Below, in pieces: positions 4,799-18,384 of a stretch of 26,270 nt of DNA. Made by a program: the position numbers and the translations under genes. Source of the stretch: an uncultured Bacteroidales bacterium (GTDB lineage: Bacteria > Bacteroidota > Bacteroidia > Bacteroidales > UBA932); the NCBI GenBank assembly GCA_927798505.1, contig CAKMNE010000002.1, positions 1 to 26,270 on the forward strand, in the 5' to 3' direction. The notes under the pieces were generated by a model. That model saw nothing but the letters and a program-made list of their open reading frames with translations, did no database searches and was not told the DNA's origin. Each line of letters starts with the position of its first letter. Position 1 is the stretch's first letter.

Positions 4799-5278
4799 AT
4801 GCAAAAAATAGCAAGTTTTACAGTAGACCATCTCCGATTGAAACGCGGAATTTTCGTTTCGCGAAAGGACCGCGTGGGTTCGGAAGTCGTGACCACCTTT
4901 GATATCAGGATGAAGGAGCCCAACAGGGAGCCGGTGCTCCATCCGGATGCAATTCACACCATAGAGCACCTTGCCGCCACATTCCTGCGAAACCACAGCG
5001 AGTGGGGCGAAAGGATAATCTATTGGGGACCCATGGGCTGCCTCACCGGCAATTACCTCATCGTCAAGGGAGACCTGCAAAGTGCAGATATACTGCCGCT
5101 TATGCGCGAGACCTTCACATTCATCTCCCAGTTTGACGGCCCCGTCCCGGGTGCCTGTGCCCGTGACTGCGGCAATTACCTGATGATGAACCTCCCTATG
5201 GCCCGCCTCGAAGCCTCCCGCTATCTCCACGAAGTCCTCGACCACCCCACCGACGACAACCTCAATTATCCCCAGTAA
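4799..5278 (+). CDS. luxS: S-ribosylhomocysteine lyase (AI-2 synthase)
   Basis: LuxS cleaves S-ribosylhomocysteine to homocysteine and DPD, the autoinducer-2 precursor. It is a cytosolic homodimeric metalloenzyme. The 159-residue product is of normal length. It shows the metal-binding HTIEH motif (His53, Glu56, His57), catalytic Cys81 in GPMGCLTG, the third metal-ligand region in ARDCGNY, the substrate-contact stretch TFDIRMKEPN, and the SFTVDH/SRKD N-terminus. ATG 4799 is preferred over an in-frame TTG at 4790 that belongs to the promoter box. It sits directly after metH, and its product homocysteine is the MetH substrate, so the block is a local methyl cycle. Whether AI-2 signalling exists here cannot be told from sequence. 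Confidence 0.97.
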   Translation: MQKIASFTVDHLRLKRGIFVSRKDRVGSEVVTTFDIRMKEPNREPVLHPDAIHTIEHLAATFLRNHSEWGERIIYWGPMGCLTGNYLIVKGDLQSADILPLMRETFTFISQFDGPVPGACARDCGNYLMMNLPMARLEASRYLHEVLDHPTDDNLNYPQ

Positions 5279-5303
5279 CGGTGACCCCTCAACAGCGATC
5301 CCG

Positions 5304-5339
5304 TCTGCGCACTTTGGTGACTCCTTCTGCGCACTTTGG
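5304..5339 (+). repeat. 14-bp direct repeat
   Basis: TCTGCGCACTTTGG occurs at 5304-5317 and again at 5326-5339, a 22-bp period. The core GCACTTT reappears at 5491-5497 and 5555-5561, each time shortly upstream of one of the palindromes in the same intergenic region. It looks like part of a longer decayed repeat unit. Confidence 0.6.
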
Positions 5340-5363
5340 ACAACCCTGCTAGACCCTCCCGAG

Positions 5364-5590
5364 TTTTCCCGACGTGTAACGTTAGGAAATCCCCGACCGT
5401 CTTTTGGGCTTTCTGAGGTACTTCACAGTCACTGTTTGCCGCTTCGGGTTTTCCTAATGTGTCACATCAGGATGAAAAACGGCCTTCCACGCACTTTTAG
5501 CTCCCGATGTGTCACATTAGGAAATTGCCAATATGCCTTCCAGGCCCTTCTGTGGCACTTTCTATTTTTCCTGATCTGTCACATCAGGAA
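5364..5590. repeat. Cluster of four imperfect palindromes
   Basis: Four copies of a palindrome related to CCTAATGTGTCACATTAGG lie at 5364-5389, 5449-5472, 5501-5524 and 5565-5590, with centres near 5377, 5462, 5512 and 5579. Each is a 9-bp half, a central T, and a 9-bp half with mismatches, usually flanked by TTTT on the left and AAA on the right. The spacing is irregular (85, 50 and 67 bp). They could be repetitive extragenic palindromes or operator sites; the flanking A/T runs mean they could also act as weak bidirectional terminators after luxS. Confidence 0.6.
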
Positions 5591-5605
5591 TAGTTTTTTG
5601 CGAAT

Positions 5606-5647
5606 AGTAAGTCAGGTACCCCAAAATTACATCTGATTTTCTGTAAG
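5606..5647. repeat. Hairpin repeat, copy A (degenerate)
   Basis: GTCAGGTACCCCAAAA at 5611-5626 followed by CTGATTTT at 5633-5640 and the tail CTGTAAG at 5641-5647. It is related to copy B (5777-5817) and copy C (26121-26162) but has a poorer stem, so it is probably a decayed copy. The A to B distance is 170 bp in the same orientation. Confidence 0.55.
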
Positions 5648-5776
5648 AAATTGTATATCAAGTGGTTAATGTTTGTGGCTTGTGGTGAGCCCAACCTTGA
5701 CTGCTTGTGGGGAGGAGCAATTGCTGACTTCCAAAAGTTGAGTAAAACGTAAGTACCTGTAATACAGATAGTTATG

Positions 5777-5810
5777 AAAAATCAGGTACCCCAAAAGGAT
5801 ACCTGATTTA
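5777..5810 (-). terminator. Probable intrinsic terminator of the minus-strand surface operon (hairpin repeat copy B)
   Basis: Read on the minus strand, AAATCAGGTATCC pairs with GGGGTACCTGATTT around a TTTT loop, with a single bulge and one G-T pair, and is followed by TTTTT. It lies 37 bp beyond the stop of the last gene of the operon. Reading the other way it also has a T-rich exit, so it may act bidirectionally. Copy C ends the plus-strand operon in the equivalent orientation, which supports a terminator role. Confidence 0.6.
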
Positions 5811-5847
5811 CTGTAAGTGTTTGTGAGTCAATGCCTGCCGCTAAGCG

Positions 5848-7254
5848 TTAGTTGTTGCGGATGCAGCGGACGTGGCAGGCGTTGGTGATGTTGTTGTAGC
5901 CCACAACGATTGTTGTAGAAGCGGCGACGTTGCTGATCATAAATGCGTAGTTCTGTTTTGCTGACCTGCCGGTGCTGAGGTGGAAATAATCCATTGAGTT
6001 CATCCCGGCAAACTCGGCTACACCGCTGACGTTCATCACCCTGTTGCCGTAGCTGGCCTCTGCATTGACATAGCTGTAAGGCTGGAAGTTGATGCCGTCC
6101 TGGTTGATTTCAGCAAGATTGCAGCGTGCATCGGTGGCGTTGTAGTATGGTGCATTCACGTCAGTGAGGGTCTTGTCATTGCATTTTCCGATAAGGGCGA
6201 TACCCTCGGCAGCTGTAGGAATATGCCATCCGTCAGGGCAGATTCCCTGATTGTTCTCAACATCGACATTCAGAGCCCATTCAGGAGCAGTTCCTCCGAA
6301 TGCAACGTCATCTGAGTAGAACAAACCCTGGGCCTTGATTACAGCCTCATCCATAGAACCCGCGACATTTTTATCACCGCTGGTAACGCAAGGAGCGTAA
6401 ATTCCGGTCTTTTCGGAGAAGTCGAGAGGGGCAATGGATGCTCCTTCCGGAACATAGTGCAGATTCTCTGCGAACCAGGCCCTTCCGTCAGCCATAATGA
6501 CGGTCTTGTAGTTGTAACCGCCATAGTTGAGATAACCGCGGGTGCATTTGATTGGCTTGCTTGAGGTGTAGGTGGTACCATCCTTCTTGACTACAATTAC
6601 CTGCAGAAGTCCGGTATCGCCGGCGGCGGCTCCTGTGTTCTTTACAAGCACTGATTTGCAGTCACTTGCAATGACAGCTTCCCAAGAAGAAGCGGCTGCT
6701 TTGGTAACCACGCTGCCATTCACTACGGTTGCGCACACGCTTACAGGCTCTTCGAAATCAGGAATCACAACAGGAACAGTTGCCTGCTCGGCAATCAGAA
6801 TCACATCCTCTGCGTCCCCAATCACAATCTTCACTGCCATGGGGAGCACGAAGGTGGTCTGCGCCTCGTCGTTCAGCACGACGGTGACATGCTCTGCAGT
6901 AACAGTGACACTCTTGAAGAACGAATCGCCATCAGCACCCGGAGCACCATCAGCACCCGGAGCGCCATCAGCACCGTCCTTGCCCGGAGCACCATCAGCA
7001 CCGTCCTTGCCGTTTACCAACTCGATGCTCTTTCCGTTGGTGAACACAATCTTGTAACCGTTCTCAATCTCTTCAACTGCTTCGACGGCATATTTTCCGT
7101 CGACAGCGGCCTGAAGCTGCGCGATGGCAGCCTCAATCTTCTCAGTCTTCTCCTCGAGGGCGGAAACCCTTACCTCAAGATCATTGACCTTCTGGCATCC
7201 TGCACTCAAAACCACGAGTGCAAGGCCCAATCCTACAAAACTAATTCTCTTCAT
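5848..7254 (-). CDS. FISUMP-domain lipoprotein with coiled coil and collagen-like repeat
   Basis: This 468-residue predicted lipoprotein has a signal peptide ending in LSAGC with lipidated Cys20. Residues about 24-60 form a coiled coil. With the following GYKIVFTNGKSIELVNG this resembles the DUF4988/PL29-lyase N-terminal module common on Bacteroidetes surface proteins. Residues 82-108 are nine uninterrupted Gly-X-Y triplets built from GKD, GAD and GAP. A beta-rich middle follows. From about 240 to the end is a FISUMP domain (Fibrobacter succinogenes major paralogous family, TIGR02145), with GRAWFAENLHYVPEG and QGICPDGWHIPT as its hallmarks. It is the last gene of the operon, 11 bp after its FISUMP neighbour. 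I infer a surface-displayed stalk (coiled coil plus collagen-like rod) carrying a FISUMP head; FISUMP has no established biochemical role. Confidence 0.85.
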   Translation of the reverse strand: MKRISFVGLGLALVVLSAGCQKVNDLEVRVSALEEKTEKIEAAIAQLQAAVDGKYAVEAVEEIENGYKIVFTNGKSIELVNGKDGADGAPGKDGADGAPGADGAPGADGDSFFKSVTVTAEHVTVVLNDEAQTTFVLPMAVKIVIGDAEDVILIAEQATVPVVIPDFEEPVSVCATVVNGSVVTKAAASSWEAVIASDCKSVLVKNTGAAAGDTGLLQVIVVKKDGTTYTSSKPIKCTRGYLNYGGYNYKTVIMADGRAWFAENLHYVPEGASIAPLDFSEKTGIYAPCVTSGDKNVAGSMDEAVIKAQGLFYSDDVAFGGTAPEWALNVDVENNQGICPDGWHIPTAAEGIALIGKCNDKTLTDVNAPYYNATDARCNLAEINQDGINFQPYSYVNAEASYGNRVMNVSGVAEFAGMNSMDYFHLSTGRSAKQNYAFMISNVAASTTIVVGYNNITNACHVRCIRNN

Positions 7255-7265
7255 AATATTTTGAT

Positions 7266-8837
7266 TTAAAGATTTTTAACACATCTTAACTGTAATCCTG
7301 AATTATACGCTGAATAAGACAGGCTCAATCTTCCCTTGGAATAGGTCTCGGTAAAGGTGGTCATTCCCGTGAACATCTGGAAGACTCCGCTCGAAGTGAT
7401 GGTATTCGAGCTGGAAGTCATAAGGTAGTTCACAGACGGTTTTCCGAGGCATTCCTCCACAGTGCATTTTGGAGAGGCGCAAACGTTAGTGAGGTATTTG
7501 CCGTTCACCACAGTTCCGCTCTGCACGAAATTGAATCCCATCTCATTGGCCTTCACTATGGTAGCATAGTTGAGGGTCTGGTCCCAGAACAGGGCGCTGT
7601 CATCCGTGACAGGCCCGCTCTCGCCGCCGTCGATATGCTTGTTGGAATAGCCGAACAGTTCCATGTACTCCGCACGGGTAGGCACGTGCCAGCCCTTCGG
7701 GCAAATGCCCTGAGCCCCTTCGAAAGAGTTGTAATTATCTGCTGTAAAGGCAGTTCCGAACACGGCCTCATAGCTGTAAAGATAGCCTAGAGCCTTGATG
7801 GACTCCTCGTCCGAAAGTGCTGTGGCGACAGTCCCGTCAGTAGAATACGGATACCAGACAGAACCCTCGGCAGGAGCGGCCACGGCGCTCATTCCCTCAG
7901 GCAGATAGGCCATAGGCTCCGTCATCCACTTCCTTCCCCCGAACACGCCGGTGGTGTAGGTCTTGCCGCGGTACTTGATGCAGCCCTCCAGCTCCTCGGC
8001 CTCACTCTCGTCAACCACTGTTCCGATCAGGCTGCCGCCGTCCTCCCAATTCTCGATTTCGCCTGCGAAGCTGGCTTTCATCATATCCGGAAGTATCTCA
8101 ATGCCAACCCCATAGGTGTAGCCGGAAAGCAGCTCGGCCTCGCCTGTTCCGGTGAGAAGGGTAGCCCCGTCAACTGCCACTCCGATTTCGAAGGAACCGC
8201 TCTGAGGCGCAATGATCACCCTGTACTTGCGCCCTTCCTCAATGGTCTCGGCCTTGATGTCAACAGGCGCGGCGCTCTCATCGGCAGCAACCGACAGCGA
8301 ACCGTCAGAAGCCTTAATCACTTTAACGGACGGCCTTACGCCCTTCACCACAACATCGCCTACCTGGACTCCCGGGTTGTCTATGCTGATGACAATCTGC
8401 ACCATCTGGTGGCGGAACACTGTCAGCAGAGCATCTCCCTGAGGGAATACATTTTCCTTGAAGGCGAACATAAGGTCGGAAGCGCCGGCTCCCGCGCTCT
8501 GGTCCGTTGCAACGCTGAAGCTCTGCGGCACCCCACCCTCAATGTAAGGGTAGTAAGCGGAAACGGTGCAGCTCTGCCCACCGTCGGCGTACCATTTGAG
8601 AGAGGATGAGAACACCCTGTCGGAATAGCTCAGGCAGGCATTGTCCGCATACAGGCTTCCGTCTGAGCGGATTATGCTCAGACCTATCATATCCCCCTCC
8701 TCGAAATTGGTGGAAGTCGCTTTAGAGATAATAGGTTCAAGTCTGATCACAGCGCCATCTGCCGGTGGCAGGGGAGTTTCCCTGTTGCAGGCCAGCAGTG
8801 CAAGGGCTGCGAAAATGATTAATCCATGCTTTTTCAT
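7266..8837 (-). CDS. Fimbrillin-like / FISUMP fusion lipoprotein
   Basis: This 523-residue predicted lipoprotein has signal peptide MKKHGLIIFAALALLAC with lipidated Cys17. Residues about 30-270 resemble the fimbrillin/Mfa-like family: ISKATSTNFEEGDMIG, YYPY, SDLMFA and the FRHQMVQIVISI segment are typical of that fold. From about 285 onward lies a FISUMP domain with the motifs GRKWMTEPMAYLPEG, LGYLYSYEAVFG and QGICPKGWHVPTRAEY. It starts 6 bp after the DUF6850 gene and precedes a second FISUMP lipoprotein. I infer a surface adhesin-like or ligand-binding protein. Whether the fimbrillin part can polymerise by strand exchange is unknown; the fused C-terminal domain argues for a tip or anchored role rather than a fimbrial shaft. 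Confidence 0.8.
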   Translation of the reverse strand: MKKHGLIIFAALALLACNRETPLPPADGAVIRLEPIISKATSTNFEEGDMIGLSIIRSDGSLYADNACLSYSDRVFSSSLKWYADGGQSCTVSAYYPYIEGGVPQSFSVATDQSAGAGASDLMFAFKENVFPQGDALLTVFRHQMVQIVISIDNPGVQVGDVVVKGVRPSVKVIKASDGSLSVAADESAAPVDIKAETIEEGRKYRVIIAPQSGSFEIGVAVDGATLLTGTGEAELLSGYTYGVGIEILPDMMKASFAGEIENWEDGGSLIGTVVDESEAEELEGCIKYRGKTYTTGVFGGRKWMTEPMAYLPEGMSAVAAPAEGSVWYPYSTDGTVATALSDEESIKALGYLYSYEAVFGTAFTADNYNSFEGAQGICPKGWHVPTRAEYMELFGYSNKHIDGGESGPVTDDSALFWDQTLNYATIVKANEMGFNFVQSGTVVNGKYLTNVCASPKCTVEECLGKPSVNYLMTSSSNTITSSGVFQMFTGMTTFTETYSKGRLSLSYSAYNSGLQLRCVKNL

Positions 8838-8843
8838 ATCGTA

Positions 8844-10367
8844 TCAAAAATCTAATCCTACTGTAATTGATGCGCCTGCGCGTGTCCTTCCGTCAAGCAC
8901 TTCGCAAGGACCAAGGCCAAGCAGGGCCTCGGCATCCAGCCCAAGGAACCAGGACTTGCCGCCCGGATACCACCTGGCCTGCAGTCCGCCCTTTGCCTTA
9001 GGCATGCAAAGGTATTCGTAAATCTGTGCAAAACCCTGCTCGTAGCGCAGCGGCAGCCCGTCCACCTGCACCTCGCTCAGCTGCGACTCCCGCTCATCAA
9101 GGCTGCCGAGCGAAGCCCCCAGCCAGAGTTCCAGCTCCAGGCTGCCCAGGTGGTAGCGTCCTGAAACGCGAGTGTCCAGAAGCTCCGTCTGCTGCCATTT
9201 CAGATATGGATACACCAGCGAAGAGAGCGAGCGCTGGATCTCACAGCGGGCTTCGGCTCTGAAGGTAAACACCTGACTATCATACTGATAGGACGGAGAA
9301 AGCAGCAGGCGCCGCCTTTCCAGAATCCGGTTGGAACCATAGGTCTTCACGGTGGTGATGCCGCCCTCCGAAATCTTGTCCAGCACGCTTTCGCTGTTGG
9401 TCTGCGCGCTACCTGTAAGCGAGAGCCTGAGGCTGTGCGCACCCATCCTGCATCCTAGTCGCAGGGCGAGTTCATCGCTTGGGAATGTGTACCATATGAA
9501 CTCCTTCTCTCCGGCTACGCCCCTTTTGTGGCGGTACTGCAGGGAAGCGAAGGCCTTATCCTTCCATCCCGCCTCCAAGGCAGCCCCGAAGCTGTTTTCG
9601 CTCATCGGAAGGCTGTTCACTCCCGGCTCCGCCAAATGCACGCCGCTGCCGGTCCAAAGCTCGCTGACTCCATACATCTGCCCCTTGTCCAGGAAGGCCT
9701 GCAGGTAGCCCTGCGTCAGGCCGATCTGGTCGGCGCTTATGGTTTCGGCCGCCCTGCCAAGCAGAGCATCCGCTTCGACAGATAAACCGCCGCTGTGCCA
9801 CATCATTCCGGCGGCGCATTCCAAGTCCAGGCGGTAATTCAGATGTCGCAGGTCCTTGCGTTTGGAATAGTTGCGGGAGTTCATAGTGAATCGTCCTCCA
9901 AGCCTCCAGCTTTCGTCCAGATCCACGCTTATGCCTCCGTCCACCAGGTAGCTCTGAAGCGTCTTGCGGCCCGGGGTGAACTCCCACACCTCGATGGGGA
10001 AGTAGCCGGGTTCTATGGACATGGGCCCGCACATCCCCTCGCCCTGCCTCTGTTCGAAGGCGAAGGCTCCGGTCATAGAGAAGCGGTCCAGATGCCTTAT
10101 GGCCCGGGTCTGTGCTCCCGCTGTCCAAAGCGACGGCGCCGCCCAAGCCTCTTTCAGTCCGCCCTGCTCCCAGCCCGTGTACAGTGAGGCTTCGGCGGCG
10201 CCGACACTTCCCATCCTTATGCCGTTGACTCCGACCCCGTCATTCCACAGGTTGTCGAGCAGCACCCTCTCGTAGCGGGACTGCGCCTTGATTTCCCCTG
10301 CGAAGCACAGGAGGGTCACGATCAAGCTAATCGTGCAGAGACTGTGTTTCGCGTTCATAGAAATCAT
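8844..10367 (-). CDS. DUF6850-family outer-membrane beta-barrel protein
   Basis: This 507-residue predicted outer-membrane protein has a signal peptide ending at about IKA|QS. The mature part has alternating hydrophobic and polar strands rich in aromatic residues, and the chain ends in GLDF, a C-terminal aromatic typical of a BAM signal. The N-terminal stretch with LWNDGVGVNGIRMGSVGAAEASLYTGWEQG matches my memory of the DUF6850 family, found downstream of DUF4876 and TonB-receptor genes in Bacteroidetes. The start overlaps the end of the DUF4876 gene; ATG 10358 (MNAKHS) is an equally plausible start. Function is unknown. It could be an accessory porin or a partner of the receptor and lipoproteins in the same operon. 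Confidence 0.75.
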   Translation of the reverse strand: MISMNAKHSLCTISLIVTLLCFAGEIKAQSRYERVLLDNLWNDGVGVNGIRMGSVGAAEASLYTGWEQGGLKEAWAAPSLWTAGAQTRAIRHLDRFSMTGAFAFEQRQGEGMCGPMSIEPGYFPIEVWEFTPGRKTLQSYLVDGGISVDLDESWRLGGRFTMNSRNYSKRKDLRHLNYRLDLECAAGMMWHSGGLSVEADALLGRAAETISADQIGLTQGYLQAFLDKGQMYGVSELWTGSGVHLAEPGVNSLPMSENSFGAALEAGWKDKAFASLQYRHKRGVAGEKEFIWYTFPSDELALRLGCRMGAHSLRLSLTGSAQTNSESVLDKISEGGITTVKTYGSNRILERRRLLLSPSYQYDSQVFTFRAEARCEIQRSLSSLVYPYLKWQQTELLDTRVSGRYHLGSLELELWLGASLGSLDERESQLSEVQVDGLPLRYEQGFAQIYEYLCMPKAKGGLQARWYPGGKSWFLGLDAEALLGLGPCEVLDGRTRAGASITVGLDF

Positions 10368-11517
10368 TGCTTGAATTATTCGTGTCAGAGAGTATTTCGT
10401 AGCCTGCTGCCTCGCTCGCGGCCTCGTCTCGAGAGCGCATCAGAGTGTGGCAGAGGAAAGAATTCTGAAGGCTCACATAGCCGGCATCCAGCTCCGGAAT
10501 CAGGCGCTTTGCGTTGGCCGATGATGATCCGGAAAAAACCTCCACGGCATCTATAACATCCTCGTAAGGGATGGCTGTAACCTTGTCCACCGTGCTTCCC
10601 GGCACCTGGCGCACATCCGGCTCGCCCCTCAGCCTGAACAGCAGGGCGGTAGGGGAGTTTATGGAGAAGGTGTAGGCATTGGCAATGCCGGTCTTCACAA
10701 CCACATCCATATACCTTGCCGGGTCAATCTTGTCCCCAGGCACAGGATGGTAGGTGGTGTTGGTGAAATATGTATTGTTGTAGCAGACGAAGTAGCCCTC
10801 CTTGTTGAGGTTGACCGACTGAGGGTATCTTGCGCTATGGTCTATCGCGCCCTTGAGCACCAGCACCGCATCCTCTCCGGGCTGTAGAGGAAAACTGCCG
10901 CCGTCCCCCGGGAAGCGCCATACGCACTGGGCTATAGGCGCGAACTCAGGGTAGGTGACATTGCCTTCCCCGTCCCTGGAGATGAAAGGATTGGTAGCCA
11001 TGGCATTGTAGGGCAGCAGGGTGCCGAAGCACAGGCTGTCCAGGTACTGGACTTCGTAGTGGTTGTTGTGAAGAATGATGTACTGGTCATTCTGATAGGT
11101 GCCTTCCTCCGGGGTTTTCAGGCAGCCGCCGCAATAGATTTCCTTGATGACTATGGTGCCGGCCTTGGATCTTTTGAGCTGAATGCTCGCTGCAGTGACG
11201 CCCCGGCTGACAATCACCTTGTCGGCCGTGCCGTTGAACACATCAGCGTCCCGGCGCTCCGAAACGCTAAGCCTGTACACCCCGCTGCTGAGCTGCAGCA
11301 CAGCCTTGCCCTCTGAGCCGCTCACCGCGCTGTAGCAGTGCCCGAGGTTGATTTCCTCCGCCTTCACGGTCACTGCTCCTGCGGCCTCAAAGCCCTCCGG
11401 CCAGATGACACTCACCTCAAGCGTGCAGAGAGAAGCCTGGAAAGGGTTTTGCTCCAGGGAAAGGCATCCGCAGAGCATCAGGGAGGCAAGAGCCAGATAT
11501 GCAAGCATTCTTCTCAT
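10327..11517 (-). CDS. DUF4876-family lipoprotein
   Basis: This 396-residue predicted lipoprotein has a signal peptide with lipobox LCGC and lipidated Cys18. Residues about 30-105 look like a carboxypeptidase-regulatory/transthyretin-like beta sandwich (TLEVSVIWPEGFEAAGAVTVKAE, then SSGVYRLSVSE). The rest begins with GTIVIKEIYCGGC, then a segment with YIILHNNHYEVQYLDSLCFG that I recognise as typical of DUF4876. The ATG at 11517 forms an ATGA overlap with the stop of the TonB-dependent receptor, so the two are coupled; upstream in-frame codons lie inside that receptor gene and lack a signal peptide. By position it is the likely surface lipoprotein partner of the receptor, analogous to SusD-type partners but of an unrelated family. 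No ligand is known to me. Confidence 0.82.
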   Translation of the reverse strand: MRRMLAYLALASLMLCGCLSLEQNPFQASLCTLEVSVIWPEGFEAAGAVTVKAEEINLGHCYSAVSGSEGKAVLQLSSGVYRLSVSERRDADVFNGTADKVIVSRGVTAASIQLKRSKAGTIVIKEIYCGGCLKTPEEGTYQNDQYIILHNNHYEVQYLDSLCFGTLLPYNAMATNPFISRDGEGNVTYPEFAPIAQCVWRFPGDGGSFPLQPGEDAVLVLKGAIDHSARYPQSVNLNKEGYFVCYNNTYFTNTTYHPVPGDKIDPARYMDVVVKTGIANAYTFSINSPTALLFRLRGEPDVRQVPGSTVDKVTAIPYEDVIDAVEVFSGSSSANAKRLIPELDAGYVSLQNSFLCHTLMRSRDEAASEAAGYEILSDTNNSSNDFYERETQSLHD

Positions 11518-14312
11518 AGTTTCAATCTGCAGCTGAGTCCGTAATAAAAGTCCGGGGTGAAAATGGCCCCCACTCCGGTTGCCCACGAAACCACATAGGG
11601 TCTCGAATAGGTGAAATTGTTTGCGAAGAAGGAGATGCTGACCTTGTCCCCGACTTCCTTTGTAATGCTGAGGTTGGCGCAGGCATAAGGGCCGTAGCCG
11701 TCCTGGTCGAAGGTGTAGATGTTGCCGGATTTCAAAATCAGGTTGCTGAAAGCCGGGTCCGAAGCCTGAGCCTGCGTGAAAGGATGCACATTGCCGTCCA
11801 CGTCCATATAGGAAACCGGATAGACATACCAGTAGCCGTCCTCGCTCCTTTGGGCGTAAGGCTGCCCGTCGGCAATGGAGATGTTCCTGCTCATCCTCAG
11901 CAGCGAGGCCTCCAGCCTCAGTGTGATGATGAGCCGAGCCTCTGGGATATGGGTGATTGCCGTGAGGTTGGCATCCAGATTATGGGTGATCTTTCCGTTC
12001 ATGACAGGTGCGGAGCTGCCTCCGTTGGCATACAGTCCTGCGTATTGGTAGGACTTGTCCGGCTCCGAACTGTGGGACCATCCGGTCTGGTAGTACCAGC
12101 AGAGCCTGTCATCGTGGGAGCTGGTGCCGCACCAGGAGGCGTCAAGCCTGAACTTGGTCCTCAGAGGCTTGATTTCCGGGAAGTCCGCGGTCAGCTCGAC
12201 ACCGGCCCTGCGCACCGGCTTGCCGTTTTCCTGGCGGGTGGTCTTTACAAAAGTCCTATCAATCACCTTGGTGTCCATCAGGGTCCATCCCTCATCCTCC
12301 GAGCCCCTGACATAGACTTCGCCCGTCTGGTTGTCCACCCTGATGTCGGTAAGGGCACCGGTGGTGAACCCGCTCGGCCTGGCGCTGATGCGGTAGGAGA
12401 AAGGAGAGTATGCGGTTCCCAGAGTGTATGGATTTTCGGTAATGTTGATATAGCCTACCAGAGAAACAGAGGTCTGTCCCAGACGGAAATCCATTCCCAG
12501 CTCGGAGTTGCTGCTACGCTGCCAGCGAAGATCCGGATTGTACTCCAGGGTGTATGGAATGGTGTAGTACACATATTCCGAACTGCCCTCGTAGGAATAG
12601 CCGAAGGTCTGGATGTCCCTGTACTCCTGCTGAGGGTAGAGTATGTAGAAAGAAGGCAGTTTTTCGGATATGCCCCATCCTCCCCTGACGGAGAAGTTGT
12701 CGGAAAGCTCCAGCTTTGCGTTGAAGCGCGGGGACAGGCTGCTGACATTCCTGTAGGACGAGCCTTTCACCAGCACGTTTTCCTGCCTCAGTCCGAAGGA
12801 AACGCTCAGTTTGCTCCTGCCTATGGGGACAAGGGCCTCTTCTTCGGCGTAGAGGGAGAAGTTGTGCATAAAAGGATAATCGCTGTATGGCCTCGGCCTG
12901 TAGCCGTGGTCGGCGAGTGCAGGGTCCAGGTAATATTCTCCCTGCCCCGTGTTGCCGTTGGCCTTCCACTGCGCACCGGCTTTGAACTTGCTCTTCACGG
13001 CTCCGAAATTTCGGTTGAGGCTGTATTTCAGGGAGGCTGCAAGGTCCAGTTCCTTGGAGTCAGTAATCAAGTCCGAGTAGTAGAGCACGGGGCGTTTGAC
13101 GGCCAGACTGTAGCCCTGCTGCTCGTAGTGCACCGCGGGCTGGTTGGAGGAGAAGGAGTTGTATTTATGAACCTGCGAGAGGTCGTCTTCGAACGAAAGG
13201 GAAGCCTCCGCCTTCAGGGAGGTGATCCATGGCTTGCCAAGCATCCAGGATATGGAGGAATTGGCACGCAGGGCATTCGCCCTGGCCTTGTTGAATGCGC
13301 CCGTAAAGGCATCCGGATCATCTTCCGTATTCATTCCTCCTATGTTTGCGGAAAGCCCGCCCTCGAAACGCAGGTTGTGGGCGAAATTGTTGCTGTAAGT
13401 CATCGAAAGCCCCCTTCTGGTGTAGGACTCGTAAGGGCTGTACAGCTTTTTTGTGGCGCGGGCCCATTCGCCGCTGACATTCAGCACGCCCTCATCCCCA
13501 AGGCCGATTCCCTTGGAAACGGAAGTCTGCCAGGTCCTCGGGTTGACGGAAAAATTCACGTTCAGGGGAGTCTTGCCGTGGCGGGTGTGAATCCGCACCA
13601 TCCCGCTTCCCAGGTCGCCGTATTCGGCGCTCGGCACGCCGGTTATCACCTCCACCGACTCCACATTGTCAACGCTGATGCTGCGCGTGTCCACTCCTGC
13701 CATTTCCCCGAACCCGGCGTTGCTGCCAAGGCGCACGCCGTCCACCTCCACGGCTGTGCCGAAAGCCGCATTGCCTGCCGTGCTGCCTCCCTGACGCAGG
13801 GAGAAGCTGGTAGCCGTCGTAAGGTCAGGATTTATGGTCTTGCCTCCCGGAAGCAGGGCTGAAACATCCGAAAGGGAGGACATCTGCAGATGGTTGAGCG
13901 CATCGCGCCCCAGGGTCGTGGTAGTGTTGAGGCCCGTCTTTGCCCTTTCTGCCGTCACCGTCACCTCTTCTATGGCAAGGGAACTGATTTTCAGGGAGAA
14001 ATCCAGCTTGAGGTCCCTGTCCTTGATCTCTATTTCCACGCTCTTGGAAACATAGCCCAGGCAATCCACTGTCAGCAGGTAGTGTCCTTTCGGAATATCG
14101 GTGAATATATAGACTCCTTCGGCATTGCTCATAGCCCAGATGGTGCCGTCGTCGATTTTCAGGGCAGCTCCCGGAATTGGGGCATCGCTGCCTTCCTCCA
14201 GTATGGAGCCGGTGATGTCAAATCCCGTAGCTGCAGCCGATATCGGAAGACCCGATATCAGTAGGGCGGCTATAGCGCCCGCAAGGACTTTTTTCAGCCG
14301 TTTTGTATCCAT
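11514..14312 (-). CDS. TonB-dependent receptor with N-terminal carboxypeptidase-regulatory-like domain
   Basis: This 932-residue outer-membrane receptor uses TonB energy to import a ligand. A signal peptide (MDTKRLKKVLAGAIAALLIS) is followed at about 30-110 by a carboxypeptidase-regulatory-like domain (FDITGSILEEGSDAPIPGA). Next come a TonB-box-like segment (IEEVTVTAERA), a plug domain at about 125-250 (AVEVDGVRLG, VESVEVITGVPSAEYGDLGSGMVRI), and a 22-strand type barrel to the C-terminus (GLSCRLKL). It is the first gene of the operon and lacks a SusD partner, so glycan import of the SusCD kind is not indicated. The pairing with DUF4876/DUF6850 and the divergent iron-sulfur/HMA protein makes a metal, metal chelate or redox-linked ligand a reasonable but unproven guess. 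Confidence 0.92.
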   Translation of the reverse strand: MDTKRLKKVLAGAIAALLISGLPISAAATGFDITGSILEEGSDAPIPGAALKIDDGTIWAMSNAEGVYIFTDIPKGHYLLTVDCLGYVSKSVEIEIKDRDLKLDFSLKISSLAIEEVTVTAERAKTGLNTTTTLGRDALNHLQMSSLSDVSALLPGGKTINPDLTTATSFSLRQGGSTAGNAAFGTAVEVDGVRLGSNAGFGEMAGVDTRSISVDNVESVEVITGVPSAEYGDLGSGMVRIHTRHGKTPLNVNFSVNPRTWQTSVSKGIGLGDEGVLNVSGEWARATKKLYSPYESYTRRGLSMTYSNNFAHNLRFEGGLSANIGGMNTEDDPDAFTGAFNKARANALRANSSISWMLGKPWITSLKAEASLSFEDDLSQVHKYNSFSSNQPAVHYEQQGYSLAVKRPVLYYSDLITDSKELDLAASLKYSLNRNFGAVKSKFKAGAQWKANGNTGQGEYYLDPALADHGYRPRPYSDYPFMHNFSLYAEEEALVPIGRSKLSVSFGLRQENVLVKGSSYRNVSSLSPRFNAKLELSDNFSVRGGWGISEKLPSFYILYPQQEYRDIQTFGYSYEGSSEYVYYTIPYTLEYNPDLRWQRSSNSELGMDFRLGQTSVSLVGYINITENPYTLGTAYSPFSYRISARPSGFTTGALTDIRVDNQTGEVYVRGSEDEGWTLMDTKVIDRTFVKTTRQENGKPVRRAGVELTADFPEIKPLRTKFRLDASWCGTSSHDDRLCWYYQTGWSHSSEPDKSYQYAGLYANGGSSAPVMNGKITHNLDANLTAITHIPEARLIITLRLEASLLRMSRNISIADGQPYAQRSEDGYWYVYPVSYMDVDGNVHPFTQAQASDPAFSNLILKSGNIYTFDQDGYGPYACANLSITKEVGDKVSISFFANNFTYSRPYVVSWATGVGAIFTPDFYYGLSCRLKL

Positions 14313-14333
14313 ACACTACAGAATTATGCCTTG

Positions 14334-14341
14334 CAAATATA
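14334..14341 (-). promoter_or_regulatory. -7 box of the minus-strand surface operon
   Basis: On the minus strand the sequence is TATATTTG, a full match to the Bacteroidetes TAnnTTTG element, ending 21 nt before the receptor ATG. A TTAG about 19 nt upstream (plus-strand 14362-14365) is a weak -33 candidate and falls on the -7 box of the divergent gene. No ribosome binding site is visible in the short leader. Confidence 0.5.
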
Positions 14342-14362
14342 TTATTTTCCGAAGAGAATCGC

Positions 14363-14370
14363 TAACTTTG
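14363..14370 (+). promoter_or_regulatory. -7 box of the plus-strand FeS-S46-uvrA operon
   Basis: TAACTTTG matches TAnnTTTG and ends 20 nt before the ATG at 14391. Its -33 region would fall at about 14338-14344, on the -7 box of the divergent operon, so the two promoters cannot easily be occupied at the same time. I see no clear -33 TTTG. Confidence 0.5.
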
Positions 14371-14390
14371 AAGGATTAAAATTTTACGTG

Positions 14391-16385
14391 ATGGCAAAGA
14401 TTAAAACCATACGCGCCAACTGGCCGAAGTACCTGCTCCAATGGGGAGTTCTTCTCGCAATCGTCGGATTCATAACACTCGCTGGCAGTGATCCTGAAAA
14501 GTACTGCCCAATGGGTGGATTGCAGGCTTTTGTCACCTTCCTGACCAGGGGCTCCCTGCCTTGCTCGATGAGCAGTCTGCAGATTATGATGGGTTTGGTG
14601 CTTGCCGCAGGGGTAATCCTTTTCAGCAAGCTTTTCTGTGCCTACATCTGCCCTATAGGCACAGTCGAGGACATGCTCACCAAAGCCAGGATGGCGATGG
14701 GCATCAAAGGCCTTGAGATTCGCCGCAAGAGTGTGCCTGACTACATCCTTCGCGCAGTCAAATACGCCCTGCTTTTCTGGATTTTCTACTCCACCGCAAC
14801 GGCCAGCGAGCTCTTCTGCAAGAACCTGGACCCATACTATGCCGTTGCAACCGGATTCAAGGGTGAGATCACCCTGTGGATGAGCCTTGTGAGCCTTGCC
14901 CTGGTGCTTCTGCCCGGCTTTTTCATCAAAAGATTCTGGTGCCGCTACATATGCCCTCTCGGGGCGCTTTCAAACGGCCTCAAGTTCTGGATTCCGCTGC
15001 TGGCCATGGGCCTGCTCTTCTGGGTGCTCTCGCTGCTGGGCGTAAGGATTGCCTGGCCTTGGTATCTGGGAGCCTTCTGTGTGGTGGGCTATGTGCTTGA
15101 AGTCATTGCCTATGCCACCAAGGTTCAGCCGCTTGCGGTGATCGTGGACCAGGACAGGTGCGGCCGCCACTGCATGTCCTGCCAGAAGGCCTGTCCATAT
15201 CACATCAATGTGCCTGCGGAAGGCCAGAGGCTGACCGCCGTGGATTGCATGCTCTGTGGGGAATGCGTCGCCGCCTGCCCGAGCAAGGCCCTCAGAATAG
15301 GCGTAAGCCCGAAGGGCAGGTCCAAGGCCGGAAAGTACCTGCCTGCGGTGCTCGCGGTGGCCCTTGCAGTGCTCGGAGCGGTGATAGGCAGCAGGTTCGA
15401 GCTTCCTACCATCAACGAGACTTTCGGAGTCGAGGAAGGGATGGAGCTCAAGACCATGAAGGTCGAAGGCCTCAAGTCGGTCAAGTGCTACGGCTCCTCA
15501 ATGGCCTTCAAAGCCAGGATGGAGAAGGTGCCGGGCGTGCACGGGGTGAAGACCTATGTGGGCACGCACAGCGTGGTGCTCAGCTACGACCCTAAGGTGA
15601 CCGACGAGGAGCGGATCATGGAGCAGATCTATGTTCCCGCACATTTCCGCATCTGGTCCCCGGACCCAAAGAAGCTGGACAGCCTGAAGTGCGTCACCAT
15701 ACGTACGGAGAAAATGTACGACAAACTGGACCTCAATTACCTCGGCCTGCAGATGCGGGGTACCGGCAAGAGCGTTTTCGGGCTTGAGAGCGAGTACGCA
15801 TGCCCTCTGATTGTGCGCGTCTATATGTCCCCGGACGAACAGCTCGACGAAAAGTGGTTCAAACAGATAGTGGAGATGAAGATGCTCTCCATGCCTGTGC
15901 ACGGCGGCGGTACCAAGGACACCCCTGTGGACTTCAAGTTCGTGCGCCTCGAAAAGGGAGAGAGCTATATCCCTGTGGCAGAGTATCTTGAGAAGATGTT
16001 CGACGGCTTCAAGGCGGAGTTCAACGGCCGTTACCCTCAGGGCGACAGCACCGTGGTGCGAAAGCGCAGCGAGGTCTATGCCAACGCCCCTCAGTACATC
16101 TACGAAATCGCCGACCAGAGCTACGAGAAGCCTATCATACGCAGGGCCCTGCCTTACCTGAGCAACCATCTCTCCAAGGAAGAGGGCGTAATCGGAGTGT
16201 ACCTTGCCCTGAACAGGGACCTCGTTCCTTCCATCCAGGTGCGCTATGCCGCTCCGATGACAGCCGACAGGCTTTGGGAACTGATGACTATGGACAAATG
16301 GACCATTACCTACAAGGCTGACGACGTGCGCGAGGAAGACGCAAGGCTCAAGTTCAGCACGGCGGGAAGCGTTTATAAATACTGA
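14391..16385 (+). CDS. NapH-like membrane polyferredoxin with HMA-like domain
   Basis: This 664-residue inner-membrane protein has several N-terminal transmembrane helices. It carries two membrane Cys motifs of the NapH/NosR/CcoG type, Cys83-AYI-Cys87-P and Cys184-RYI-Cys188-P. Two 4Fe-4S sites follow: Cys257/261/264/268 (C-x3-C-x2-C-x3-CP) and Cys286/289/292/296 (C-x2-C-x2-C-x3-CP). A further helix is at about 310-330. Residues about 360-405 resemble an HMA metal-binding fold (SVKCYGSSMAFKARMEKVPGV) but with only one Cys, at 366, instead of CxxC. The last 250 residues are unassigned. ATG 14391 is chosen because it follows the promoter and gives a sensible membrane N-terminus. I infer electron transfer linked to metal handling, from its own domains and from its divergence from a TonB-receptor operon; the substrate is unknown. 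Confidence 0.85.
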   Translation: MAKIKTIRANWPKYLLQWGVLLAIVGFITLAGSDPEKYCPMGGLQAFVTFLTRGSLPCSMSSLQIMMGLVLAAGVILFSKLFCAYICPIGTVEDMLTKARMAMGIKGLEIRRKSVPDYILRAVKYALLFWIFYSTATASELFCKNLDPYYAVATGFKGEITLWMSLVSLALVLLPGFFIKRFWCRYICPLGALSNGLKFWIPLLAMGLLFWVLSLLGVRIAWPWYLGAFCVVGYVLEVIAYATKVQPLAVIVDQDRCGRHCMSCQKACPYHINVPAEGQRLTAVDCMLCGECVAACPSKALRIGVSPKGRSKAGKYLPAVLAVALAVLGAVIGSRFELPTINETFGVEEGMELKTMKVEGLKSVKCYGSSMAFKARMEKVPGVHGVKTYVGTHSVVLSYDPKVTDEERIMEQIYVPAHFRIWSPDPKKLDSLKCVTIRTEKMYDKLDLNYLGLQMRGTGKSVFGLESEYACPLIVRVYMSPDEQLDEKWFKQIVEMKMLSMPVHGGGTKDTPVDFKFVRLEKGESYIPVAEYLEKMFDGFKAEFNGRYPQGDSTVVRKRSEVYANAPQYIYEIADQSYEKPIIRRALPYLSNHLSKEEGVIGVYLALNRDLVPSIQVRYAAPMTADRLWELMTMDKWTITYKADDVREEDARLKFSTAGSVYKY

Positions 16386-16389
16386 GCCT

Positions 16390-18384
16390 ATGGGAAATAA
16401 GAGATTATTCGCCATAGCGTTTCTGATTTGCCTGCCCCTCCTTGCGGGGGCGGACGAGGGCATGTGGATGGTTAATTCGCTCTCTGACCGGCTTGTGCGC
16501 AAGATGCAGCGCGCCGGGCTCCAGCTGGAGGGCAAGGATATATACAACGTGGAAGACGCTTCGCTGTGCGGAGCAGTAGTGTCCATGGACTTCGTCGGCA
16601 CCGGAAGCATGATTTCCTCGCAGGGCCTGCTGATTACCAACCACCACGTCGCCTATTCCGATGTGTTCTCGCTCAGCACCGCTGAGCACAATTACCTCGA
16701 AGACGGTTTCTGGGCCCGTTCCCGCGAAGAGGAAATAAGGATTCCGGGAAAGAAGGTGCAGTTTCTGGTGAGAATCACGGATGTCACCGATGAGGTCGAG
16801 CAGCTGAAAAAGCAGCTGAAGGAGCAGGGAATCAAAGCGGGTATGCGCAAACTCAGCCACCTGATAGAGAAGAAATACAGGGAGGAAACAGGCTGTGAGG
16901 CCTCACTGTCCTCAATGTGGGCCGGTTCCAAGTACTACCTTTCCCTCTACCGCGAGTACGACGACGTGCGTCTGGTTGCCGCGCCGCCGGTGAGCATAGC
17001 CGCCTTCGGCGGGGACATAGACAATTGGGAATGGCCTCAGTACAAGGGGGATTTCGCGCTTTACAGGGTCTATGGTCCTGACGGCAAGCCCATTACCCCT
17101 TCCGGGTGGCTGCCGATTGACGCTTCCGCCCTTGCCCCGGGGGATTTCACCTTCATTCTCGGTTATCCAGGAAGGACCGACAGATACTCTTCATCCTCCA
17201 AGGTGAATTATCTCACCACCCTCTCTCTGCCGATTTGCAACGAGGTGCGTGCAGACCAGATGGCAATAATGAAGAAATGGATGGACAGGGAAGAGTCAGT
17301 GCGTCTTCTTTATGCCAATAAATACTTTACCCTCAGCAATATACAGGAAAACCAGGAAGGTGAGGTGCAGTGCGTTGAGCGCTTCGGGGTGAGGGAACTC
17401 AAACGAAAGGACGAAAGGCATATGCACAGGGGACGCGACGGACGCCGCATGCGCTCCCTGAACGCCTCCATGGATTCCCTATACACTGCTCTCAGGGAGC
17501 CGGAACGCAATCGGATCTGGTATCGCGAGACTATAGTGCGGGGCAGCGGCCTCTCCCTGGTGGCGACCCGCCTCAAGAATGCGCGCAAGCCTCTGGACAT
17601 GGACAAGGAATATGCGGTGCTGGATATGAGAGTGGAAAAGGAACTCTTCGCCTACAGTGTGCGCAAATACTACGAAAATGTGGACAGCACCATGTGGGGA
17701 CCATACCAGAAGGAAGTGTTCTATGCCCACAGCCCAAACGGACTCACTGACTGGGATGCCCTTGTGGCAAGCCTGTGGACGGATTCTCAGATGAGCAAAA
17801 CTTCGCCAATCTACCTTTTCCTCACCGACCGCAGCATCCAGGATTTCAATGAAAAGGTTCAGGAGGTGTGCGGGGAGCACAATCTGGCAGAACTCAATGC
17901 CGAATACACCCGACAGACCTACCGTCACCGCGAGCGCAGGAAGGTGGATCAGTATCCGGATGCCAATTCCACCCTGCGCCTGACTTATGGCAAGATAGGC
18001 AGTTTCAGCCGTGACGGACAGACTCTCCCGTGGCAGACCTGCACAGACGGAATACTTGCAAAGGAAGACAGCTCTTCCTATGATTTCCGTCTGCATTCGG
18101 AATGGAGTGGGCTGCTCTCTTCGCTCCCGGCTCCGATTCCGGTAAATTTCATCACCGACAACGACATCACCGGTGGCAATTCCGGAAGTCCGGTGCTCAA
18201 CTGCCGGGGAGAACTGGTGGGACTCGCCTTCGACGGCAACAAGGAGTCCCTGGCCTCCGATGTGTATTGGGTGGACGGTTATACGAAGTGCATATGCGTG
18301 AATATCAGCTATGTACTGTGGATTCTCAAGGAATATGCGGGAATGGATTATCTCTTCCCTGAACTGGATGTCAGAAAAAAGTAG
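16390..18384 (+). CDS. S46-family dipeptidyl-peptidase, DPP7-like
   Basis: This 664-residue serine exopeptidase is expected in the periplasm or cell envelope, where it removes dipeptides from the N-termini of oligopeptides. It has a signal peptide of about 21 residues and all three triad regions: His86 in TNHHV, Asp in [17 protein letters not shown], and Ser598 in GGNSGSPV. Residue +18 from the Ser is Gly (LAFDGN), as in Porphyromonas DPP7, which prefers hydrophobic P1 residues, rather than Arg as in the acidic-specific DPP11. The usual Cys after TNHH is Val here. It is somewhat shorter than the roughly 710-residue family norm. It starts 4 bp after the polyferredoxin and its stop abuts the uvrA ATG. 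A role in peptide nutrition is likely; a link to its neighbours is not obvious. Confidence 0.92.

Follow-up and report, generated by a model that had tools for sequence, protein, structure and literature searches.

Relation to described iron-regulated systems

Operons in which a TonB-dependent receptor is joined to a DUF4876 protein have been found to be induced by iron starvation in Bacteroides and Porphyromonas, and an operon of this kind is present in the DNA analyzed here, a 26,270-nucleotide stretch from an uncultured Bacteroidales bacterium (contig CAKMNE010000002.1; the window), where it faces the gene of a membrane polyferredoxin (PolyFd). Under iron depletion, PG1019-22 of Porphyromonas gingivalis was upregulated 20.8- to 214.5-fold, BT3625-33 of Bacteroides thetaiotaomicron 36.7- to 128-fold, and BT1933-39 3.5- to 7.4-fold (PMC10434189). 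A P. gingivalis DUF4876 gene was downregulated in excess hemin (log2 of -5.4; PMC10470040), and PG1019 and PG1020 changed expression in the transcriptome of strain FLL361 (PMC10101095). We propose, at a probability of roughly 45%, that the PolyFd cluster is a protease-associated iron-scavenging import system in which PolyFd would serve as the inner-membrane reductase. The cluster resembles known iron-piracy systems but is not identical to them.

The products listed for BT3625-33 comprise the receptor, DUF4876, fimbrillin, PepSY-TM, ABC, and DUF4857 (PMC10434189). This operon thus shares with the window a TonB receptor, DUF4876 protein(s), a fimbrillin-type protein, and an inner-membrane partner, whereas its list names PepSY-TM proteins but neither a polyferredoxin nor an S46 peptidase, and the window cluster lacks its ABC and DUF4857 genes. 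DUF4857, for which this paper alone turned up in the open-licence literature, also occurs in two PolyFd loci of other families (L249 and L254). The receptor/DUF4876 pairing of the window is likewise found in the iron-regulated BT1933-39 and PG1019-22, although neither has a polyferredoxin or an S46 peptidase among its listed products; BT1933-39 lists a HEAT protein, as is found in DUF6850 gene sets of PolyFd-negative genomes (see below).

XusABC is described with three components, a TonB receptor, a surface lipoprotein (XusB, DUF4374), and an inner-membrane redox partner (XusC, PepSY), and the PepSY proteins that neighbor Xus receptors are described as likely reductases of ferric siderophores (PMC13142918). 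The window has the same three kinds of component, but neither DUF4374 nor PepSY was found in the Pfam scan of its cluster. Fus-type clusters (FusA/FusC and YddB/PqqL) combine receptors with M16 proteases, and some include redox enzymes for which a role in reductive iron release has been proposed (PMC6793856). An M16 protease also accompanies PolyFd in 28 of 72 related loci, while the window itself carries S46 without M16. The Fus survey covers Proteobacteria and, in its available excerpts, mentions no DUF4876- or DUF6850-type partners.

An earlier note on this DNA, made from the sequence alone, had called the locus a candidate undescribed system. That description suits only part of it. The receptor/DUF4876 portion is an already noticed iron-regulated family (PMC10434189), while its combination with a polyferredoxin and S46, M16, or C69 peptidases was not met in the open-licence literature, as far as the available excerpts extend. 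A search of the same literature for DUF6850 found nothing.

Organization of the locus

The window comes from a draft genome that is 64.6% complete, and the named close relatives of its proteins belong to Candidatus Cryptobacteroides. Two divergent operons sit among metH, luxS, uvrA, and ispD, as identified by scans of the window open reading frames (ORFs). As the earlier note had described, a five-gene minus-strand operon faces a plus-strand polyferredoxin with an HMA-like domain across 78 bp. The first gene (positions 11514-14312, minus strand) encodes a 932-aa TonB-dependent receptor with CarboxypepD_reg, plug, and barrel domains (PF13715, PF07715, and PF00593). Its stop overlaps the start of the DUF4876 gene (ATGA; 10327-11517, minus strand; PF16215, E 3e-29), which encodes a putative surface lipoprotein (lipobox ...LMLCGC) with a solved relative, 4q1z (E 1e-21). 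DUF6850 follows (8844-10358, minus strand; PF21012, E 2.5e-18), with a signal peptide and a predicted outer-membrane beta-barrel. Its structure model (pLDDT 86, pTM 0.83) matched BtuB3, AlgE, and other barrels in Foldseek at E ~1e-8 and a TM score of only ~0.4; thus, the model indicates the barrel class only.

The operon ends with two putative lipoproteins that share a FISUMP domain. One is fimbrillin-like (Mfa_like_1, PF13149, E 9e-27; FISUMP, PF09603, E 9e-16; 7266-8837, minus strand). The other joins DUF4988 (PF16378, E 7e-16) and a short collagen-like stretch, whose match lies below the cutoff (22.9 versus 27.2 bits), to FISUMP (PF09603, E 2e-11; 5848-7254, minus strand). No SusD was found among the 17 window ORFs scanned, in agreement with the statement of the earlier note that the receptor has no SusD partner. 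A SusCD nutrient pair was rejected on this ground and on the receptor score of 57 bits against the SusC/RagA cutoff of 368 bits.

On the plus strand, 4 bp separate PolyFd (14391-16385) from an S46 dipeptidyl-peptidase gene (16390-18384), after which uvrA begins with no gap. The unit outlined in the earlier note, receptor operon plus PolyFd, was correct as far as it went, but it missed the most tightly linked partner, S46, and with it the protease theme. Within the 78-bp gap, one candidate Bacteroidetes-type -7 box (TATATTTG, 14334-14341, minus strand) stands in front of the receptor operon and another (TAACTTTG, 14363-14370, plus strand) in front of PolyFd, 29 bp apart from start to start. For both we used TAnnTTTG, which we take to be the Bacteroidetes-type -7 consensus. 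A scan of positions 14200-14500 gave no sigma-70-type promoters or terminators, and no Rfam families or tRNAs were found in the window.

Conservation of the linkage

Linkage of PolyFd to the receptor/DUF4876/DUF6850 set across related genomes is well supported. A first collection of 37 loci included 13 true PolyFd relatives (57-89% identity), of which nine carry all three genes within 10 kb; L067 is fully flanked and has none of the three, and L063, L064, and L073 lie close to the ends of their contigs. In a sample of 299 genomes of the window's family, PolyFd was found in 61 (E 1e-30) and DUF6850 in 196 (E 1e-3). DUF6850 was present in 59 of the 61 PolyFd-positive genomes (Fisher p 2e-10 against the PolyFd-negative ones, with lists compared by eye, a value that is nominal because the genomes are related).

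We then compared 72 PolyFd loci, consisting of the window, loci from 54 of the 60 other PolyFd-positive genomes in the family sample, and loci from 14 further genomes. Regions from G162, G252, G258, G259, G273, and G331 were left out, two loci each came from G090, G096, and G124, and the remote or partial homologues of G036, G041, G043, and G072 were included. For L165, L217, and L224, in which the ORF caller took another frame over PolyFd, the locus center was used. The full set lies near PolyFd in 39 of the 72 loci and at least one member in 44; where at least 8 kb was available on both sides (46 loci), these counts were 29 and 30. FISUMP is near PolyFd in 11/72. At least five arrangements occur: divergent, divergent with S46 between, convergent, with S46 on the opposite strand, and same-strand, with PolyFd after DUF6850, FISUMP, or M16. 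Two types of receptor (~60% and ~35% identity to that of the window) accompany PolyFd proteins of 57-62% identity.

Outside the family, we sampled 247 genomes across the order at thresholds of E 1e-40 for PolyFd and E 1e-10 for DUF6850. PolyFd was found in 28 genomes, 25 of them outside the window's family (33-40% identity), and DUF6850 in 41. Eight of the 25 also hold DUF6850, and in six of these eight (G380, G417, G422, G501, G531, and G538, representing six families) a single contig carries the two genes, separated by 4-10 kb. Twenty PolyFd regions from outside the family were fetched. In the six linked loci, PolyFd, the receptor, and DUF6850 share one strand, and DUF4876 was called in five; in L250, where it was not called, the ORF caller took the opposite frame. 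ORFs of ~296, 222, and 408 aa accompany PolyFd and DUF6850 in five of the six loci, two of which were scanned (L249, ABC ATPase and DUF4857; L254, DUF4857). In the sixth, L252, S46 and S9 peptidases adjoin PolyFd. No DUF6850 was called in the remaining 14 regions, several of which are cut by contig ends; PolyFd is thus not confined to this system.

The link between the receptor operon and PolyFd that the earlier note had proposed is accordingly real, being present in 29 of the 46 fully flanked loci and in six families other than the window's own. The note had also suggested asking whether related genomes keep the two operons apart, and the comparison gave no refutation.

PolyFd

PolyFd (PF12801 and other Pfam matches) has seven predicted transmembrane helices, two NapH-like CxxxCP motifs, and a 2[4Fe-4S] ferredoxin domain, followed by ~330 further C-terminal residues that are predicted to be periplasmic and to include an HMA-fold domain. 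Lysine and arginine counts place this C-terminal part outside in the predicted topology. Paired CxxxCP motifs and a 4Fe-4S ferredoxin domain within a polytopic membrane protein are likewise seen in NapH and CcoG, but PolyFd lies far under the cutoff of both profiles (NapH/MauN NCBIfam, E 9e-18, 64.8 versus 213 bits; CcoG, E 1e-4, 21 versus 317 bits) and adds the predicted periplasmic part with the HMA fold.

Foldseek with the whole PolyFd model gave no match at E 1e-3; of the parts tried, the HMA part alone was informative, the others being barely tested. The modeled HMA fold most closely resembles those of copper chaperones and of CopA/ATP7 domains. The usual HMA metal motif, CxxC, reads CxxS in PolyFd, with a single invariant cysteine, C366. 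Among 68 PolyFd homologues the cysteine is invariant and the serine is kept in at least 95%, and both are invariant across a 77-row PolyFd alignment. Because of this substitution, the HMA likeness is no pointer to copper by itself.

Peptidases near PolyFd and DUF6850

The window S46 protein carries a signal peptide and belongs to the DPP7/DPP11 family (PF10459, E 2e-153, over the cutoff). It aligns with DPP11 and related enzymes among S46 structures (E 1e-68 to 3e-88) and keeps the motifs NHH, DNWEWP, and GNSGSP; NHH, DNWxWP, and the serine pattern are the S46 catalytic motifs. NHH and DNWxWP are present in all 65 long relatives.

Family labels for the neighbors of PolyFd (FISUMP included) come from Pfam scanning of one or two representatives per family. 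On that basis, 50 of the 72 PolyFd loci have S46 nearby (46 within 1 kb), 28 have M16, and 10 have C69, and at least one of the three is present in 53. The motif HxxEH is found in 28 of 29 long M16 members. The one M16 protein tested, that of L166, matched 9ldy (1e-105), PqqL (6e-64), and FusC (2e-44), with other M16 structures scoring much lower, and is thus of the PqqL/FusC type.

A different set of partners was found in 20 DUF6850 loci from PolyFd-negative genomes, hand-chosen from the DUF6850 hit list. Neither S46 nor M16 was called in any of the 20, whereas a HEAT protein of ~730 aa is present in 18 (up to four per locus) and an S9-type peptidase in seven. L246, L243, and L230 are DUF6850 loci without PolyFd that have such HEAT proteins, and L269, a PolyFd-negative DUF6850 locus outside the family, has two. 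Seven aligned HEAT sequences have an invariant His-Gly and Ala-Cys-x-Asn-Gly, which we take to be the motif of clan CD (gingipain-like) peptidases, and one HEAT protein gave a subthreshold C25 match. That these proteins are C25-like peptidases is a weak lead, of which profile searches gave no confirmation. The HEAT proteins may represent a new kind of protease that accompanies DUF6850 systems.

Proposed function and alternatives

In the proposed iron-scavenging system, the surface lipoproteins (DUF4876 and FISUMP) would present an iron-bearing cargo to the TonB receptor, and the DUF6850 barrel may help in outer-membrane assembly or export. This cargo would most likely be a peptide or protein that binds iron, or else a chelate that is partly peptide. 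In the periplasm, S46 would degrade the carrier, a task that M16 or C69 may also perform in relatives. PolyFd would conduct electrons across the inner membrane by way of its cytoplasmic 4Fe-4S clusters and reduce ferric iron (or an iron-sulfur center) bound at the periplasmic Cys/HMA face, and ferrous iron would be released for uptake. The iron regulation of homologous operons, together with the PepSY/Xus and Fus parallels, favors iron as the target, PolyFd as a reductase, and a protease-treated cargo. Iron is the likely target; we infer the protein or peptide nature of the cargo, the reduction step, the electron path, the part of each lipoprotein, and, in the window, co-regulation of the two operons. 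The suggestion of the earlier note that outer-membrane uptake is combined with inner-membrane metal redox chemistry thus survives as the best reading, with iron the most likely metal, but the HMA likeness that it had invoked does not by itself point to copper.

A more specific version, which we consider somewhat unlikely, makes the cluster a Bacteroidales counterpart of the ferredoxin-uptake (Fus) systems that evolved from another receptor/lipoprotein chassis. Intact iron proteins, or iron peptides, would be imported (ferredoxins of plants or microbes in the guts of herbivores are one example), digested by S46, M16, or C69, and stripped of iron by PolyFd, which would then be a kind of iron reductase not met in the open-licence literature, with a single-Cys periplasmic HMA-fold part. 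With the proposed iron-scavenging function, DUF4876, DUF6850, and this polyferredoxin, about which little is known, acquire a role that can be tested. The proposal also points to a parallel, in gut and rumen Bacteroidales, to the protease-associated iron piracy reported from Proteobacteria. If PolyFd does reduce periplasmic iron, operons of similar makeup would have an alternative reductase to the PepSY proteins.

Several observations weigh against this proposal. In 16 of the 46 fully flanked loci, neither the receptor nor DUF4876 nor DUF6850 was called near PolyFd, 19 of the 72 lack S46, M16, and C69, and 137 of the 238 PolyFd-negative genomes of the family sample have DUF6850. Outside the family, 17 of the 25 PolyFd-positive genomes have no DUF6850 at E 1e-10, so that PolyFd has other settings, and five of the six linked loci lack any of the four protease kinds sought. 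The S46 serine pattern is kept in only 50 of the 65 long members. No M16 of the FusC/PqqL kind is among the window proteins scanned, and the Fus parallel rests on relatives in this respect; a sequence search with the receptor matched no solved chain at E 1e-3, a kind of search that distant homology may escape, and homology to FusA is thus not established. Finally, of 13 loci with the divergent layout, only four share the 29-bp box spacing (the window, L061, L062, and L069), the first three being close relatives; the spacing is 44 bp in L068, and the other eight have other spacing or lack one box. Given this variation, a control region shared by PolyFd and the receptor operon is plausible in the window, judging from the boxes, and is not universal.

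The alternative that survives best, which we judge unlikely, is a siderophore importer of the Xus/BT3625-33 kind, with PolyFd in the place of the PepSY reductase and the peptidases either serving some other purpose or processing a peptidic siderophore. The composition of the iron-regulated BT3625-33 (receptor, DUF4876, fimbrillin, PepSY-TM, ABC, and DUF4857; PMC10434189) speaks for such an importer, as do L249 and L254, where PolyFd, the receptor, DUF4876, DUF6850, and DUF4857 occur together and none of the four protease kinds was called. Within the window's family, however, S46 is the closest and most frequent neighbor of PolyFd (46/72 within 1 kb), and M16 and C69 appear as additional or alternative peptidases.

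Peptides might instead be imported as food, with PolyFd supplying reducing power, for example to break their disulfides. The S46, M16, and C69 peptidases would suit this function, as would the S9 peptidases and HEAT proteins (one with the subthreshold C25 match) of the PolyFd-negative sets and the invariant cysteine on the predicted periplasmic side of PolyFd. We regard it as improbable, since it leaves the iron regulation of homologous operons, as reported in the cited excerpts, unexplained.

A copper importer, in which PolyFd acts like CcoG, a cupric reductase, and its HMA-fold part binds Cu(I), seems still less probable. It would draw on the copper chaperones and CopA/ATP7 domains nearest to the HMA fold, on the weak CcoG profile match, and on a family of TonB copper transporters that has reportedly been described (PMC12914433). 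Yet the metal motif is CxxS with an invariant cysteine throughout the PolyFd homologues, the homologous operons respond to iron in the published excerpts, and heme-copper oxidase subunit I was above the cutoff in none of 61 genus genomes (three weak matches below it; 8 of 14 controls positive).

Chance adjacency of two unrelated operons, which could appeal to PolyFd and DUF6850 each occurring without the other, is very improbable, as the adjacency recurs in different orders and families (p 3e-29 for 29/46 and p 2e-9 for 6/8, at assumed rates of 4% and 2% per locus and with shared ancestry ignored).

Other features of PolyFd loci and the window

In L249, from a distant Bacteroidales family, the stretch upstream of PolyFd (589-2628) encodes an ECF sigma factor (1063-1644), which may regulate the PolyFd cluster there, as well as small ORFs that have no Pfam match. 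Directly after PolyFd, L249 (4693-7092) and L254 (3749-6109) encode proteins that combine BNR/sortilin-like repeats with a type IX secretion tail. In L259, outside the family, a 1322-aa secreted PKD/SprB-type protein (4988-8956) adjoins PolyFd in the place of the receptor, and ORFs comparable in size alone occupy this position in L261 and L262. Such a neighbor points to further roles for PolyFd. At 22934-25900 of the window, directly after an NAD-dependent epimerase gene, lies the gene of a 988-aa protein in which a pyruvate phosphate dikinase ATP-binding domain is accompanied by a subthreshold response-regulator match.

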